Assembly: GCF_021502675.1 (NCBI RefSeq)
Contig: NZ_JAKFHA010000002.1
Span: 111,670-175,669 of the forward strand
Reading direction: 5' to 3'
From: Yinghuangia soli
GTDB taxonomy: Bacteria > Actinomycetota > Actinomycetes > Streptomycetales > Streptomycetaceae
Length of the DNA stretch: 64,000 bases
Shown: positions 43,564-56,154 of the stretch, in pieces
Position numbering within the stretch: the first letter of the stretch is position 1
How the letters are laid out: each line of letters opens with the position of its first letter
Made by a program: the position numbers and the translations under genes
The notes under the pieces: generated by a model
Told to the model about the DNA's origin: nothing
Seen by the model: only the letters and a program-made list of their open reading frames with translations
The model's database searches: none

Positions 43564-43575
43564 GCGCAGGTACGA

Positions 43576-43611
43576 CGAAGCCCCGCCCTCCGACCGGAGG
43601 ACGGGGCTTCG
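43576..43611. terminator. bidirectional terminator
   Basis: The 17-base arms 43576-43592 and 43595-43611 (CGAAGCCCCG/CGGGGCTTCG) pair with one mismatch. It lies between convergent genes ending at 43563 and 43625. Confidence 0.85.
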
Positions 43612-43624
43612 CGGATTCCCGGCG

Positions 43625-43897
43625 TCAGCGCGCCTTGAGAGCGTCCGTCATCACGGCCCACGAGGACGGGGCGACGGTGAGCATCCCGCGCGCGGGGTCC
43701 TTGCTGTCCCGGACCGGGACGACGGGGAATCCGTCGGCGACCTCGACGCAAGCTCCGCCGTCAGCGTTGGAGTACGACGACTTGCGCCACTTGGTTGCGA
43801 AGCCGTCGGCGACCTCGACACAGGCGCCGCCGTCGTCGTTGGAGTAGGACGACTTGCGCCACGCGGAGGCGCAGACGTCGGGCGTGATTCGCTTCAT
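43625..43897 (-). CDS. DUF397 protein with internal duplication
   Basis: 90 residues. DUF397 proteins are small partners of DUF5753-type XRE regulators in actinomycetes. The motif WRKSSYSNDDGGACVEVADGF appears twice, with a second copy WRKSSYSNADGGACVEVADGF 22 residues later, followed by the usual VPVRDSKDP and FTV-like tail (VAPSSWAVMTDALK). A normal DUF397 has one copy (~65 residues), so this gene carries a partial tandem duplication. Its ATG overlaps the stop of the XRE gene by four bases. The pair probably forms a two-protein regulatory unit. Confidence 0.88.
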   Translation of the reverse strand: MKRITPDVCASAWRKSSYSNDDGGACVEVADGFATKWRKSSYSNADGGACVEVADGFPVVPVRDSKDPARGMLTVAPSSWAVMTDALKAR

Positions 43898-44727
43898 GTC
43901 TCGTACTCCTTGATGACCGCCGTGATTAAGTCCGCCGTCTGCCCTGGTGTGAGGGCTTCTGCACGTACTCGATCGTATGTCCGTTGGTGGCTCCGAACAG
44001 TCGAAGGTTCGTCAATGATTTGGTCGTTCGTGACGCCTTCGAGGTACGCCATCCGGCCGTAGGGGTCCGGCAGCGTCAGCAGGATCAGAGGTCCTCCGAG
44101 CATGCACCGGCCTCCGCGCGCGAGCGGGGCGATCTGGAGAACCGAGTGGCGCGTGTCCACGAACGGGAGCAGGGCGGTGAGTTGATCGCGCATGATCTCC
44201 GGTCCGCCGATGACTCGGCGGATGACCGACTCGTCGAGGATGGCGGAGAGGAACGGAGGGTCGTCGCTGCGCAGGCGTTCCTGGCGTGCCATACGCCGCG
44301 CGACCTTGGAACCGATCTCTTCCGGAGTCGCGTCCGGCGCTGCGGCAATGTGCGCCGCCTGTGCGTAATCGCGTGTCTGCAGCAGGCCTGGAATCCAGTA
44401 CGGCGTGTACTCGAAGATCTCTTCCGCGCGGGCCTCTTCGCTCATGTAGTCCTGGTAGCGGTCCGGGAAAGCCTCGTCCTTGACCGTCTCCCAGAGGATG
44501 ACGAACATTCCGTGTGTACCCAGCTCTTCGTCCAGCTGGGCGGGCAGTTTCGGCGGGATCGGGCTGCCGTTCTCGTAGCGCGACCACGCTGACGTCGAGT
44601 AGCCGAAAAGGTCCGCGGTGTCCGCGAGGCTCATCCCGCGCCGTTCGCGCTGCTGCCGGATGGCCTGTCCGAAGCGGTGCAGCCGCTTGGCGTGCTCGCC
44701 AGGGTCGTTGGGCCGGAATCGTGCCAT
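43894..44727 (-). CDS. XRE regulator with DUF5753 domain
   Basis: 277 residues. The N-terminal HTH is at ~15-70 (GQAIRQQRERRGMSLADTAD, YSTSAWSRYENG). The long C-terminal DUF5753 effector domain shows YTPYWIPGLLQTRDYAQAAH and ILDESVIRRVIGG, typical phrases of this family. These proteins regulate development and secondary metabolism in streptomycetes (WhiJ-like systems). ATG 44727 follows GGAGGGGAG. Overlap with DUF397 shows co-translation. It is divergent from a small Cys-rich peptide and methyltransferase, which may be its targets. Confidence 0.9.
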   Translation of the reverse strand: MARFRPNDPGEHAKRLHRFGQAIRQQRERRGMSLADTADLFGYSTSAWSRYENGSPIPPKLPAQLDEELGTHGMFVILWETVKDEAFPDRYQDYMSEEARAEEIFEYTPYWIPGLLQTRDYAQAAHIAAAPDATPEEIGSKVARRMARQERLRSDDPPFLSAILDESVIRRVIGGPEIMRDQLTALLPFVDTRHSVLQIAPLARGGRCMLGGPLILLTLPDPYGRMAYLEGVTNDQIIDEPSTVRSHQRTYDRVRAEALTPGQTADLITAVIKEYET

Positions 44728-44867
44728 GCGCTCCCCTCCGTATCCCACCCCTGGGCGGGACGGAATCCCGTCGCAAGCGGGGACGGGCCGTCACTGCACA
44801 GCGTAGAACCGGACAGTCAGGATGGGCACACGGAACGTGAAGATGCCTGGCAGGGAAGGCGCGCAGA

Positions 44868-45056
44868 ATGACCGACGATGACCGGCCGCCCGGCCGGCGC
44901 CGCACGAGCCGGATGACGATCCGGGTCTACCAAGCCGGCACGGAAGGCGGCGAGCCCGCCCAGGTGGTCCGTCAGCGCGACCCGACGATGGTGCCGATCT
45001 CGCCGTTCGCGTGGGAGGCCTGCGTGTGCCCGAGGTGCACCCGCCACAGCTCGTGA
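44868..45056 (+). CDS. small peptide with CxCxxC tail
   Basis: 62 residues: basic N-terminus (PPGRRRTSRM), then TIRVYQAGTEGGEPAQVV, and a C-terminal FAWEACVCPRCTRHSS. The CxCxxC group could bind zinc or serve as a cross-linking site. AGGGAAGG lies eight bases before the ATG. Small proteins ending in WxxCxCPxC occur beside XRE regulators in other actinomycetes, as I recall, with no known function. It is divergent from the XRE/DUF397 pair, upstream of the methyltransferase and probably in its transcript. Confidence 0.65.
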   Translation: MTDDDRPPGRRRTSRMTIRVYQAGTEGGEPAQVVRQRDPTMVPISPFAWEACVCPRCTRHSS

Positions 45057-45102
45057 GCAGCCCGTCCGATGACGCACCCAAGCCGCAGAAGGAGGGCACG
45101 CG

Positions 45103-45132
45103 ATGCCCGACACGAAGCACAAGAAGCCGTGA
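45103..45132 (+). CDS. nine-residue leader peptide, coupled
   Basis: ATG at 45103 after the near-perfect ribosome site AAGGAGG (45089-45095 region) reads MPDTKHKKP and stops at 45130-45132. The stop overlaps the methyltransferase GTG (GTGA). It may only be a device to load ribosomes onto the downstream gene. The alternative is that it is part of a longer methyltransferase N-terminus starting at 45069 in another frame. Confidence 0.4.
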   Translation: MPDTKHKKP

Positions 45133-46133
45133 AGCGCGTCCACCAGCGGGACTTCATCCCGGACGTCATCTGGCCGTTCGACACGGAAACCGACACCTGC
45201 GGAACGGCCGTGGACCGCAAGGTGACTCCCGGCAAGTGGAGCGAACTCGTCTCCGCCGACATCCCGTTGGTCACCCAATGGGACGACGGTGCGCACACCG
45301 GCCCCGAACCGGGGTCACTTGCCTCGTCGTCCGCGTCGATGCCCGGGGTTGTCGCCACCATGCTCGCGGCGCTCGCCCCGCGCGAGGGCCAGGCGATCCT
45401 CGACATCGGGACCGGCACCGGCTACACCGCGGCGCTCATCGCCGAAGCGGTCGGCCCCGCAGGGTTCGTCACCACGCTCGAAGTCGACCCCGCCGTCGCC
45501 GCAGCCGCCCGCAGCAACCTGGAACGGGCCGGGATCGCCAACGCCGAAGTGGTCACCGGTGACGGCTTCGAGGGCTGGGCGGCTCGCGGACCGTACGACG
45601 CCGTGCACGTGACCTGCGGCATCCGGCGTATCTCGCCTGCTTGGGTCGGCCAGTGCCGGCCCGGCGCGCGCATCGTCCTCCCTTGGGGCACCGACTACAC
45701 CCAGCACGACCGGCTGCTGACCCTCACCGTCCACGGCGACGGATCGGCATCCGGGGGCGAGCACGGCCGTCGAAGCGACAGCGACCTGACGAGATCCGAG
45801 GCCCAGGAGGTGATCGGCCACGACGGCGGCTTCGCCGTCGGACTCCGCGTCCCGGACTGCTTCGTCGACCCGGCGTCCACCGGCGAGGACGCGGTCGCGC
45901 TCTGGCTCTACTCGACCCGCGACCGGTCCGTGGCGTACGCCGGGTTCCGAGACGGCCACGCCCCCGACATCGCCGAGGCCGGACCGCGCTCGTTGTGGAC
46001 CGAGGCCGCCCACGCCCGCGCATGGTGGGTGCGGCACGGCCGCCCCGGTCCCGAGCGCTTCGGCCTCACCGTCACCGCGACCGGGACGCGCGCGTGGCTG
46101 GACCGCCCGGACGGCGAATCCTGGGCGCTGTGA
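45129..46133 (+). CDS. PCMT-like SAM-dependent methyltransferase
   Basis: 334 residues. The N-terminal motif VHQRDFIPDVIWPFDTETD and VTQWDDGAHTG match the protein-isoaspartate methyltransferase-like family of actinomycetes. SAM motif I is ILDIGTGTGYTAALI, and acidic motif II is TLEVDP. The family acts on peptides or proteins, including RiPP maturation enzymes (FxLD and ATP-grasp systems), but no dehydratase or ATP-grasp gene is nearby. The start is uncertain between GTG 45129, coupled to the nine-residue frame, and ATG 45069. The usual N-terminus is longer, so this copy may be shortened. A 16-base hairpin follows. Confidence 0.82.
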   Translation: MKRVHQRDFIPDVIWPFDTETDTCGTAVDRKVTPGKWSELVSADIPLVTQWDDGAHTGPEPGSLASSSASMPGVVATMLAALAPREGQAILDIGTGTGYTAALIAEAVGPAGFVTTLEVDPAVAAAARSNLERAGIANAEVVTGDGFEGWAARGPYDAVHVTCGIRRISPAWVGQCRPGARIVLPWGTDYTQHDRLLTLTVHGDGSASGGEHGRRSDSDLTRSEAQEVIGHDGGFAVGLRVPDCFVDPASTGEDAVALWLYSTRDRSVAYAGFRDGHAPDIAEAGPRSLWTEAAHARAWWVRHGRPGPERFGLTVTATGTRAWLDRPDGESWAL

Positions 46134-46145
46134 GCCACCCGGACC

Positions 46146-46185
46146 GCCCCGCCCGCACCGTCTCCCCACACGGTGCGGGCGGGGC
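46146..46185 (+). terminator. methyltransferase terminator
   Basis: GCCCCGCCCGCACCGT (46146-46161) pairs perfectly with ACGGTGCGGGCGGGGC (46170-46185) around eight bases. Confidence 0.92.
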
Positions 46186-46255
46186 ACCCGCACGCCGCGA
46201 AGCCGCCTCTTGTCGGTGCTCCGAATCCGGGTCCCGAGGTGTTTGACTGGGGATC

Positions 46256-52844: not shown

Positions 52845-54167
52845 ATGACGACCGGCACGACGGAGTCCACCGGCCCGGGCGGCCTGCCTGAGGCCTCCCG
52901 GCCTGCTGCTCCGTCCGCGCCGGAAGCGCCCCCGCCCCGCGGATTCTGGCGCGACTTCTCGCTGCCCGCGGTGCTGGCCGGCCTGATCGCCGTCGTCGTC
53001 TCGTACTCCGGCCCCTTCGTGATCATCCTCACCGCCGCCGCCGCGGGCGGGCTGACCGAGGCGCAGACCGGTTCGTGGGTGTGGGCGATATCCATCGGCA
53101 GCGGCGCGACCTGCCTCGGGCTGAGCCTGCTGACCCGGATGCCGGTGATCACCGCCTGGTCCACGCCCGGGGCCGCGCTGCTGGTCACCAGCCTCGCGGA
53201 CTACCCGTACCGGGAGGCGGTCGGCGCCTTCCTGGTCACCGGCGTGCTGATCACCGTGATCGGCGTCTCGGGGGTCTTCGGGTGGCTGACCCGCCAGGTC
53301 CCCGCGGCGGTGGTGTCGGCGATGCTGGCCGGGATCCTCTTCGGGTTCGGCACCACCGTCTTCACCTCCCTCAAGGGCGCGCCGCTGATCGCCGGCACCG
53401 TCCTGGGCGCGTACCTGGTCGCCAAGCGCTGGACGCCGCGCTACGCGGTGCCGGTCGCGCTGCTCCTGGGCCTGGCCGCGGCGGCCGCCGACTCGCGGCT
53501 GCACGTGACCGTGGAGCGCTTCGAGCTGGCCCGCCCCGAGCTGACCTCCCCGGCGTTCTCGCTCACCGCGACCATCGGCATCGCGGTACCGCTGCTGCTG
53601 GCCACCCTGGCCTCGCAGAACGCCCCGGGCATGGCGGTGCTCGCCGCCTCCGGCTACCGCGCCGACGACCGCCTCCTCATCGGCTCCACCGGACTGGTCT
53701 CCACGGTCCTCGCGCCGTTCGGCTCGCACGCGGTCAACCTGGCCGCCATCACCGCGGCGATCTGCACCGGCCCGGAGGCGCACCCGGATCCGCGGCGCCG
53801 CTACATCGCGGGCGTCTCGGCGGGCTTCTTCTACCTGCTGATCGGCACACTCGGCTCGACCGTCGTGGTGCTGTTCGCCGGCCTGCCCAAGGAACTCGTG
53901 GCCGCGGTCGCGGGAGTGGCCCTCTTCGGCGCCCTGCTCGGCGGCCTGGCCGGCGCGATGGCGGACGAGAAGGACCGCGAGCCGGCCCTGGTCACCTTCC
54001 TCGCCACCGCGTCGGGCATGACCCTCTTCGGCATCGGATCCGCCTTCTGGGGCCTGGTCTTCGGCATGGCCGCCCACCTGATCCTGTCCACCTCCCCGCT
54101 CGCCGCGCTGCGGGCCCGGCGCGCGGCGAAACCGGCCGGGGCTCCGGCGGACGAGGGCGACGCGTAG
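52845..54167 (+). CDS. benE: BenE-type benzoate/H+ symporter-like transporter
   Basis: 440 residues, about eleven membrane spans. Signature phrases of the BenE family are GFWRDFSLPAVLAGLIAVVV near the N-terminus, ITAWSTPGAALL, LASQNAPGMAVLAASGYR and FGSHAVNLAAITAAICTG. It probably imports an aromatic acid with protons. No benzoate-degradation enzymes are nearby, so the substrate is uncertain. ATG 52845 is used, with a polar Pro-rich N-terminal tail of ~40 residues. An 11-base hairpin follows at 54188. Confidence 0.9.
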   Translation: MTTGTTESTGPGGLPEASRPAAPSAPEAPPPRGFWRDFSLPAVLAGLIAVVVSYSGPFVIILTAAAAGGLTEAQTGSWVWAISIGSGATCLGLSLLTRMPVITAWSTPGAALLVTSLADYPYREAVGAFLVTGVLITVIGVSGVFGWLTRQVPAAVVSAMLAGILFGFGTTVFTSLKGAPLIAGTVLGAYLVAKRWTPRYAVPVALLLGLAAAAADSRLHVTVERFELARPELTSPAFSLTATIGIAVPLLLATLASQNAPGMAVLAASGYRADDRLLIGSTGLVSTVLAPFGSHAVNLAAITAAICTGPEAHPDPRRRYIAGVSAGFFYLLIGTLGSTVVVLFAGLPKELVAAVAGVALFGALLGGLAGAMADEKDREPALVTFLATASGMTLFGIGSAFWGLVFGMAAHLILSTSPLAALRARRAAKPAGAPADEGDA

Positions 54168-54187
54168 TCACGACGGGCCAGTCGGCG

Positions 54188-54226
54188 CCCTCCGAGTGGG
54201 CCATCGGGGATGGTGCACTCGGAGGG
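54188..54226 (+). terminator. benE terminator
   Basis: CCCTCCGAGTG (54188-54198) pairs with CACTCGGAGGG (54216-54226). The loop holds a further CCATC/GATGG helix. Confidence 0.85.
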
Positions 54227-54333
54227 TGGGGTGTCTCGATACGGAAACAGAGTCGAGATCAGCCGTCCGGGCTACCCGTTGCGTGGTGTGCGGGCCGGGC
54301 GAGCGGGCTAGGCTTCATGGCGAACTGCCATAC

Positions 54334-54344
54334 GGCACATTGCC
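54334..54344 (+). promoter_or_regulatory. candidate operator GGCACATTGCC
   Basis: It sits within the inverted repeat TACGGCA-CAT-TGCCGTA (54331-54347), ~65 bases before the XRE gene. The exact reverse complement GGCAATGTGCC recurs at 55375-55385 on the other side of that gene. It is a likely site for the XRE protein itself. Confidence 0.6.
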
Positions 54345-54409
54345 GTACGTTTGATCGATTCGGTCTGATCGACTGCATGTGCCGACCACCAAGGAAGCTG
54401 GGGAGCATC

Positions 54410-55261
54410 ATGCCGGAGAGTCCTGATCCACTGGTCGCCTGGCGACGTCTGCGGATCGAACTTCGGCGGCTACGCGAGCACAAGGGCGATACGCAGCAGC
54501 AGGTCGCGGATGCGATGGACTGGTCGCTGTCCAAGCTGATCCGCATCGAGACCGGCCGTATCCGCATCTCCACCAACGATCTTCGCGTGCTGACGAGTTA
54601 CTACGGCGTCGAGGGCGACGCGCGCGAGGAGCTCATCGAGCTGTCGCGCGACTCGCGCCGCCAGCCGTGGTGGGAGCCCTTCCGCGAGTACATCTCGCCG
54701 GAGTACGCGACGTTCGTGGCCTGCGAGACGGACGCCTCGGAGATCCGCAACTTCGAGCCGAACGTCGTCCCCGGCCTGCTGCAGACCCCGGCGTACGTGG
54801 CCGCTGTGATGGGCAACGCCCCCCAGGACCGGTTCGTTGCCCAGAAGAAGGCCGAACTGCGTTTGCGCAGGCAGCAGTTGCTTGAGCGGCACGATATGCC
54901 CAAAGTGCGGTTCATCATCGACGAGTCGGTGGTCCGCCGGGTGGCCGGCGGCCGGGACGTCATGCGCGAGCAGCTGCGGCATCTGCGGGCCATGGCCGGG
55001 CACCCCGATGTGACGTTGCTGGTGGCCCCGTTCGCCATCGGGCTCTACCGGCTGCACCGCCGCGGGTACGTCGTCTTCCGGTTCGCCGACGAGTCGCCGA
55101 TGATCCTCTACCTGGCCGGCGGCGAGGGCGAGATGCTGACCTCCGACGTACGCGACGAGCGCCCGGTCATCTACCTGGAGGCCTTCGACGAGTTGGCCGG
55201 CAAGCTGTCCGAGGAAGAGTCGCTGAAGATCATCGACGACGCCCTCCAGCAGCTCGGCTGA
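54410..55261 (+). CDS. XRE regulator with DUF5753 domain
   Basis: 283 residues. The HTH lies at ~12-65 (LRREHKGDTQQQVADAMDWS-like stretch followed by LSKLIRIETGRIRIS). The DUF5753 domain has FEPNVVPGLLQTPAYVAAVM, ERHDMPKVRFIIDESVVRRV and EGEMLTSDVRDERPVIYLEA. It is the same regulator type as the one at 43894 but not a close copy. ATG 54410 follows GGGGAG at five bases. Here no DUF397 gene follows in the same direction; the DUF397 at 55526 faces it instead. Confidence 0.9.
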   Translation: MPESPDPLVAWRRLRIELRRLREHKGDTQQQVADAMDWSLSKLIRIETGRIRISTNDLRVLTSYYGVEGDAREELIELSRDSRRQPWWEPFREYISPEYATFVACETDASEIRNFEPNVVPGLLQTPAYVAAVMGNAPQDRFVAQKKAELRLRRQQLLERHDMPKVRFIIDESVVRRVAGGRDVMREQLRHLRAMAGHPDVTLLVAPFAIGLYRLHRRGYVVFRFADESPMILYLAGGEGEMLTSDVRDERPVIYLEAFDELAGKLSEEESLKIIDDALQQLG

Positions 55262-55374
55262 CCCGGCCGGCCGACTGGCGATCTTCCTTGGCGGCCAAGG
55301 GATTTCCCTGCATTTCCTGCGCATGCCTGTGCAGCTCTTGTCACCGGTTGGTCCATACGGTTCCATGATGGGCA

Positions 55375-55385
55375 GGCAATGTGCC
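55375..55385. promoter_or_regulatory. second candidate operator GGCAATGTGCC
   Basis: This is an exact reverse complement of the site at 54334. It sits in a TGCC/GGCA-rich patch (55372-55415) that looks like a promoter region. The nearest good start downstream on the plus strand is GTG 55460 after GAGGGAGG, but that frame is not convincing. Confidence 0.5.
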
Positions 55386-55525
55386 ACATGGCAGACAGGT
55401 CATATGGCATACCGACCTGAGGCGTTCAGCCACGTGGTCGGCGCGGGATCCCGAGGGAGGTGGGGGACGTGCATTCGACCGGAGAACTGCGGTCGGCAGC
55501 GGGGGTGTGCACGTCCCCCGGCCCC

Positions 55526-55723
55526 TCAGTGCAGCGCGGAACGGGCCATGGCGGCTCCGAGTTCGCGCCACGCAGCGGTGGCGAACCTCAGTTCGCCGTG
55601 ATCCGCGCGCCGCGAGTCGCGGACCCGGACCGGTGCGGCGAGGAGCACCTCGACGCACTGGTCGTCGTCGTCGCTGTACGAGCTCGTACGCCACGTTCCC
55701 TCGGTCTTGCTCGGCTCGGCCAC
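55526..55723 (-). CDS. DUF397 protein
   Basis: 65 residues, normal DUF397 length and layout: WRTSSYSDDDDQCVEVLLAA, VRVRDSRRAD, then the C-terminal FATAAWRELGAAM. The single conserved Cys is present. It starts with GTG at 55723, with GGAG upstream. Its probable XRE partner at 54410 lies on the opposite strand and converges, so the usual XRE-DUF397 order is broken. Confidence 0.82.
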   Translation of the reverse strand: MAEPSKTEGTWRTSSYSDDDDQCVEVLLAAPVRVRDSRRADHGELRFATAAWRELGAAMARSALH

Positions 55724-56154
55724 GCCTCGTCTCCCTCACCCATGGACATGAGAAGTCGCCGCAGCGGGGTTCGTGGCATCGTCGGCACGGGTTCCGCAAC
55801 GGATGACGGCAAAAGCCGTCGTAGGGAGGAGGATTCCCACAATCCGCTGCGGATTCCACACTGCCGGACCGACCAACGCCTCCCCCCAAGGCGCCTGCAC
55901 ACACGACAAGGGGCGAAGCGCCGACTAGGCCTCGGTGCCCCGCCCCTACCGCCGAACCACCTGGAGCGGCCGACGCCACACCCGGAGATCCGAGACAGGT
56001 TTCCAGGCTATCGAAGGCTGCGACCGCTGATAAGGGTCCGCTCGGAGTCGGCCGAAAGCGCTTGCGCGCCAAGGCGGTTCCGGACGGCCCCGACCCTCCC
56101 GCCCGCGTCGGCGCGGCCGTCGGGGCGGGGCAGCACCGAGCCCTGGGAGTCCCT
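55724..56154. other. intergenic region without a gene
   Basis: 431 bases; the plus-strand frames are Arg/Pro-rich and unconvincing. AT-richer patches (about 55795-55850) may hold the DUF397 promoter. No repeat or hairpin stands out. Confidence 0.4.

Follow-up and report, generated by a model that had tools for sequence, protein, structure and literature searches.

Does the small cysteine-tailed peptide encoded ahead of a SAM methyltransferase in Yinghuangia soli serve as the substrate of that enzyme, and what is the role of the nine-residue frame that lies between them? We addressed this question in a window comprising the whole stretch of 64,000 nucleotides. Overall, we consider it probable that the locus combines an XRE/DUF397 switch, a cysteine-tailed small protein that accompanies the switch, and a shrunken pamtide/imiditide unit.

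Gene content, control region and mobility of the cassette

The peptide, the methyltransferase, the nine-residue frame and the divergent XRE/DUF397 genes noticed in the preliminary description were all confirmed at their positions. On the minus strand, a gene for an XRE regulator with HTH_31 and DUF5753 domains (43894–44748; PF13560, 1.3e-10; PF19054, 1.3e-48) is overlapped at its end by a gene encoding two fused DUF397 repeats (43625–43897; PF04149, 2e-28, in two stretches). This arrangement, an XRE/DUF5753 gene followed by DUF397, is that of the XRE-DUF397 regulator pairs Scr1/Scr2, to which the window locus adds a divergent cysteine protein. Beyond a control region (44749–44867), the plus strand encodes the 62-aa cysteine peptide (44868–45056), the nine-residue frame (45103–45132) and the methyltransferase (45129–46133; 334 aa from the coupled GTG), and the cassette is bordered by nitrilase-like and NHL genes. 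Elsewhere in the window, a second XRE/DUF5753-like match (plus strand, 153 bits) is found at 52892–55735, with a DUF397-like frame on the minus strand nearby.

The control region was compared across six loci of the genus. The sister copies share a block containing the inverted repeat TGAGTGAC-N6-GTTACTCA ahead of AGGAGG, the ribosome site of the peptide gene. The window copy has diverged from this block, which would fit relaxed control without proving it. A consensus scan for promoters and terminators revealed none, including no sigma-70-like promoter in the control region.

The sister species G002 lacks the whole cassette (43566–46255): 84 bp lie there between the nitrilase-like and NHL/thioredoxin-like genes that border it in the window (84% and 86% identical in the two species), and 2,692 bp separate them in the window. 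Since the flanking genes are adjacent in G002, the cassette was gained or lost as a unit. Such presence and absence between sister species would also fit a toxin-antitoxin-like mobile unit, with the XRE protein as antitoxin, DUF397 or the peptide as toxin, and the pamtide pair as cargo. XRE-DUF397 pairs have been proposed as toxin-antitoxin systems, according to the citation of PMC2701414 in PMC10364602, and relatives of the peptide occur near recombinases in viral-collection contigs. However, the pairs of S. coelicolor are reported to regulate antibiotic production (PMC6262351, PMC10364602), and we regard a toxin-antitoxin unit as rather improbable here.

The methyltransferase and its relatives

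The methyltransferase carries a PCMT domain (PF01135, 102.8 bits). Its predicted structure (mean pLDDT 90.9) comprises a PIMT fold with a C-terminal domain and matches 1DL5 (Z 22.1, rmsd 6.3, 277 residues aligned), the T. maritima PIMT, whose C-terminal domain marks RiPP-associated PAMTs (PMC10787088). The WxxxGxP motif, described in the literature along with the acidic loop of NmaM, a loop needed for modification (PMC10787088, PMC13001092), is kept as WVRHGRP at residues 320–326. The best NCBIfam match is TIGR04188, the methyltransferase of Group 13 graspetides, loci of which may also carry DUF397/DUF5753 (PMC13097080), but the window enzyme scores 195 bits against a curated cut-off of 380; for TIGR04364, of the FxLD system, it scores 121 bits against 320. 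Searches of the window with models built here detected neither ATP-grasp nor radical SAM genes. Scores so far under both curated cut-offs, along with the lack of an ATP-grasp gene in the window, rule out a standard FxLD or graspetide locus, as the preliminary description had anticipated. A defence system was likewise rejected, PADLOC having returned only a partial match of the PCMT domain to the MADS2 model.

In a tree of 59 sequences, the methyltransferase copies of the genus form one clade (support 100/98), which includes the window copy, three sister copies that follow a cysteine peptide and one without the peptide, and which is nested inside the ATP-grasp-free PAMTs. Among the nearest named relatives without ATP-grasp, 14 of 18 have a tiny ORF rich in G/P/D/K/H/E/N/Q immediately ahead of the methyltransferase; the same test was positive for 0/22 ATP-grasp-linked relatives and 2/329 other genes of the same loci. 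Type I pamtides/imiditides are encoded in two-gene loci of this layout, a tiny precursor and then the PAMT (PMC10787088, PMC13001092). With the described SpaA-SpaM and NmaA-NmaM pairs, the window unit shares the order of precursor and PAMT, the lack of any other RiPP enzyme among those searched (ATP-grasp and radical SAM), the PIMT fold with its C-terminal domain, WxxxGxP and the basic precursor tail. We place the window methyltransferase among the aspartyl O-methyltransferases (PAMTs) that modify RiPPs of the type I pamtide/imiditide class. The earlier suggestion of a minimal peptide-modification system was therefore right in kind, although the cysteine peptide is most doubtful as the substrate.

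The nine-residue frame and the state of the precursor-PAMT pair

The nine-residue frame, MPDTKHKKP, has AGAAGGAGGGC upstream, a strong ribosome site; it starts at ATG 45103 and ends at TGA 45130–45132, overlapping the methyltransferase GTG 45129 as GTGA. Compared with a precursor of about 45 aa that is rich in Gly/Pro/Asp and adjacent to a PAMT, it has 9 aa, and, unlike the precursors of type I pamtides, it has no G/P-rich core. The paralogue C1, in the same genome, encodes MPDLKHKDQNPRPEPKPATPPNPDQRQPPPANDPKHKKP, a Pro-rich precursor of 39 aa, at the matching ribosome site CAGAAGGAGGGCACG and with the same GTGA overlap; MPDTKHKKP corresponds to its first residues joined to its last residues. 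In a base-by-base pairwise alignment that resolved the flanks, two GAAGCACAAG repeats coding for KHK bound a 90-bp in-frame deletion in the window copy. Because C1 has the full precursor with the same ribosome site and the same overlap, the nine-residue frame is best read as the vestige of a type I pamtide/imiditide precursor that has lost its core.

GTGA at the methyltransferase start is also found in C1, in C78, another copy of the same genome, and in the sister-genome copy. The alternative start at ATG 45069, which would extend the methyltransferase frame to 354 aa and, as previously considered, make the nine-residue frame irrelevant, is disfavoured because this coupling recurs in the sister copies. 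Immediately ahead of every sister methyltransferase copy lies a precursor ORF of its own. In C78 this is a DnaJ-type precursor with two CxxCxGxG motifs, MAKRRKPVPCTLCGGKGFKEISQDGKVEKKSCGRCNGTGIVG, characteristic of type II pamtides/cysimiditides such as FcaA-FcaM, preceding a PAMT of the same clade; the copies in C73 (own genome) and in the sister genome carry type I precursor peptides. At the C73 locus, L270, the type I pamtide pair (MGDHSKDNDTPQQGNEKDGKSDTIGGGNTGTRRKPKEGGK) is intact and its PAMT falls in the same clade; an XRE-like gene is present there and a cysteine peptide is not. Within one genome, paralogues in the same layout carry a complete precursor of type I, one of type II or a remnant of nine residues, and so offer a natural deletion series for testing the needs of the enzyme.

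The window PAMT also lacks a 29-residue segment (GPFGGG..FMKMRAQR..) found in the other genus copies and conserved in its relatives. The loss is located after ASG, at about residue 229 of the 354-aa frame, at the head of the C-terminal domain, and removes the FMxLRxQR segment, whose M and R positions show 90%+ conservation in an alignment of 24 sequences. The structure model is least confident at this point (mean pLDDT 47–60, residues 231–250). WDDDG of the paralogue adjoins the deletion and is altered in the window copy; this acidic stretch may be equivalent to the acidic loop to which the binding of basic precursors has been ascribed. Relative to the paralogue, the window PAMT shows a dN of 0.169 and a dS of 0.787, a dN/dS of about 0.2, which indicates past constraint on the methyltransferases and cannot date the loss.

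Together, the precursor collapse and the 29-residue loss in the PAMT indicate a pair that has probably decayed or become minimal. The assembly is a draft of 91 contigs, in which an error might be concealed at the deletions, although collapse of a 10-bp repeat is rare. There is evidence against lost activity, since the methyltransferase frame is open and constrained and the tiny ORF keeps its ribosome site, its Asp and its basic tail. Together with the retained Asp-Thr and GTGA coupling, these features could mean that the nine residues still work as a minimal imiditide precursor lacking a leader, with Asp3 and the KHKKP tail, and that the trimmed PAMT has adapted to it. NmaA tolerates leader truncation (PMC13001092), and the frame of a Streptomyces achromogenes relative has 18 residues, MGKHPPPSPPPDPKRKKG; however, the PAMT lost a segment conserved in its relatives at the same time, and none of the other precursors found is this short. 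We therefore judge a functional minimal precursor unlikely and favour the reading of a remnant, according to which the locus would exhibit a recently defined RiPP class undergoing erosion.

In the model that we propose, the cassette has three parts: the divergent XRE/DUF5753-DUF397 switch, the cysteine-tailed small protein and a two-gene pamtide/imiditide unit. In this unit, the tiny precursor would be translated first and the PAMT would start on its stop codon, at GTGA, which would couple production of the enzyme to that of its substrate. Where the sister copies are functional, a single Asp of the basic Pro/Gly-rich precursor is expected to be methylated by the PAMT, leading to aspartimide/isoAsp. 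In the window copy, with the precursor collapsed to MPDTKHKKP and the PAMT short of 29 residues, the modifying output has probably been lost or much reduced, and what is left is the switch with its cysteine protein. A further difference from known type I pamtides is that the unit is placed under an XRE/DUF397 switch and accompanied by an additional cysteine protein.

The cysteine peptide and its association with XRE regulators

The peptide has the C-terminus ACVCPRCTRHSS and ends in CVCPRCTRHSS, with a single CxCPRC motif; the family can be described as TxRV...[WY]PxCxCPR[CH]. Homologues were detected by a profile search (E <= 1e-3) in at least 34 of 395 genomes of the family, and the back-translated pattern [WY]P[PA]CxCPRC matched in at least 55 of 298 genomes, against 4 matches in all for the reversed pattern, these being lower bounds that depend on related genomes, our own models and a simple gene caller. 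As homologues are present in family genomes and the motif pattern is far above its reversed control, the peptide is not a chance ORF. The Y. soli genome encodes five copies. Library searches assigned the peptide to no Pfam, NCBIfam or PHROGs family, and no description of the cysteine family was found, under the terms used, in the open-access papers searched. The peptide was absent from the phage records searched, with two weak matches in Streptomyces plasmids, and an AlphaFold prediction from a five-row alignment (pLDDT 58.6) gave no usable model.

Among 79 retrieved loci in which the peptide was identified with confidence, which come from related genomes and are not independent, XRE/DUF5753 lies upstream of the peptide in 45 and downstream in 0, while DUF397 lies upstream in 41 and downstream in none. 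Any XRE-type regulator was found upstream in 55 of these loci, the other 24 having no XRE by the models built here. A PAMT is within reach in only 11/79. In 23/79 a convergent gene comes next, at a distance of less than 400 bp, so that in these loci no co-transcribed enzyme follows. Downstream neighbours vary, from pamtide pairs in the same genus to two proteins of about 100 aa without a match in another genus and radical SAM genes in a few loci. On this distribution, the cysteine peptide constitutes a separate, uncatalogued family in Streptomycetaceae-like genomes that is tied to XRE regulators.

The same order and adjacency in four genus copies would be expected if the peptide were a new RiPP precursor modified by the methyltransferase, and a few loci (L080 and L233) pair the peptide with radical SAM, with or without a PAMT, in the absence of a known precursor. 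Against this, most homologues lack a methyltransferase neighbour, the peptide was found beside 0/80 independently retrieved methyltransferase relatives, and each sister methyltransferase is fronted by its own precursor. The clade member L270 has no peptide, and the peptide itself has no conserved Asp in a P/G context. The homologue search thus speaks against the peptide as substrate: its distribution rules out an obligate one, and we consider a substrate role very unlikely in any form. A type II pamtide precursor was also rejected, as it would contain two CxxCxGxG motifs around a conserved Asp and the peptide has a single CxCPRC.

The XRE association, the variable downstream genes and the rarity of PAMT neighbours instead lead us to read the peptide as a partner of the regulator. 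The last ligand of CxCPR[CH] is C in 74 and H in 5 of the 79 loci, the exchange expected of a metal ligand, and we therefore infer metal binding through this motif. As a standing neighbour of the switch, the small protein would bind Zn or a similar metal and act with or on the regulator. A metal-binding co-regulator, the other role offered by the preliminary description, is accordingly the more likely one for the peptide, judging from motif and gene neighbourhood. More tentatively, in Streptomycetaceae-like genomes and in certain mobile elements, the CxCPR[CH] family might form a third, metal-binding part of XRE switches and so make up a three-part mobile switch of which the downstream output (pamtide pair, radical SAM or gene pairs) is exchanged between loci. 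The mode of action of XRE/DUF397 switches is unsettled, and a small protein that recurs next to them, and that none of the family libraries checked contains, offers a tangible starting point for their study.

Further arrangements were observed among the peptide loci. In L080 and L233 the cysteine peptide is slightly upstream of the radical SAM gene, followed in L080 by a PAMT; 249 rSAM-PAMT pairs without a known substrate have been reported (PMC10787088). Four viral-collection contigs (L273, L274, L275 and L276) encode Asp-box-like versions of the peptide, RVSRDGGRTW...CxCPRC/H, and their neighbours are integrase/recombinase genes, XRE or TPR genes, or phage lysis genes. In one genus (L051–L056, L060, L065, L068, L071 and L072), one or two proteins of about 100 aa (clusters c4 and c2), without a Pfam match, are encoded after the peptide. 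A protein of 57–86 aa (cluster c6, ...VLIDLGRxxPxxxxxLTDLLR) lies between XRE and the peptide in 18/79 loci, for example L061, L069 and L073. Finally, in L079 the cysteine peptide, a 45-aa ORF and a JmjC/cupin-like gene follow one another in this order and may make up a further unit for a small modified peptide.
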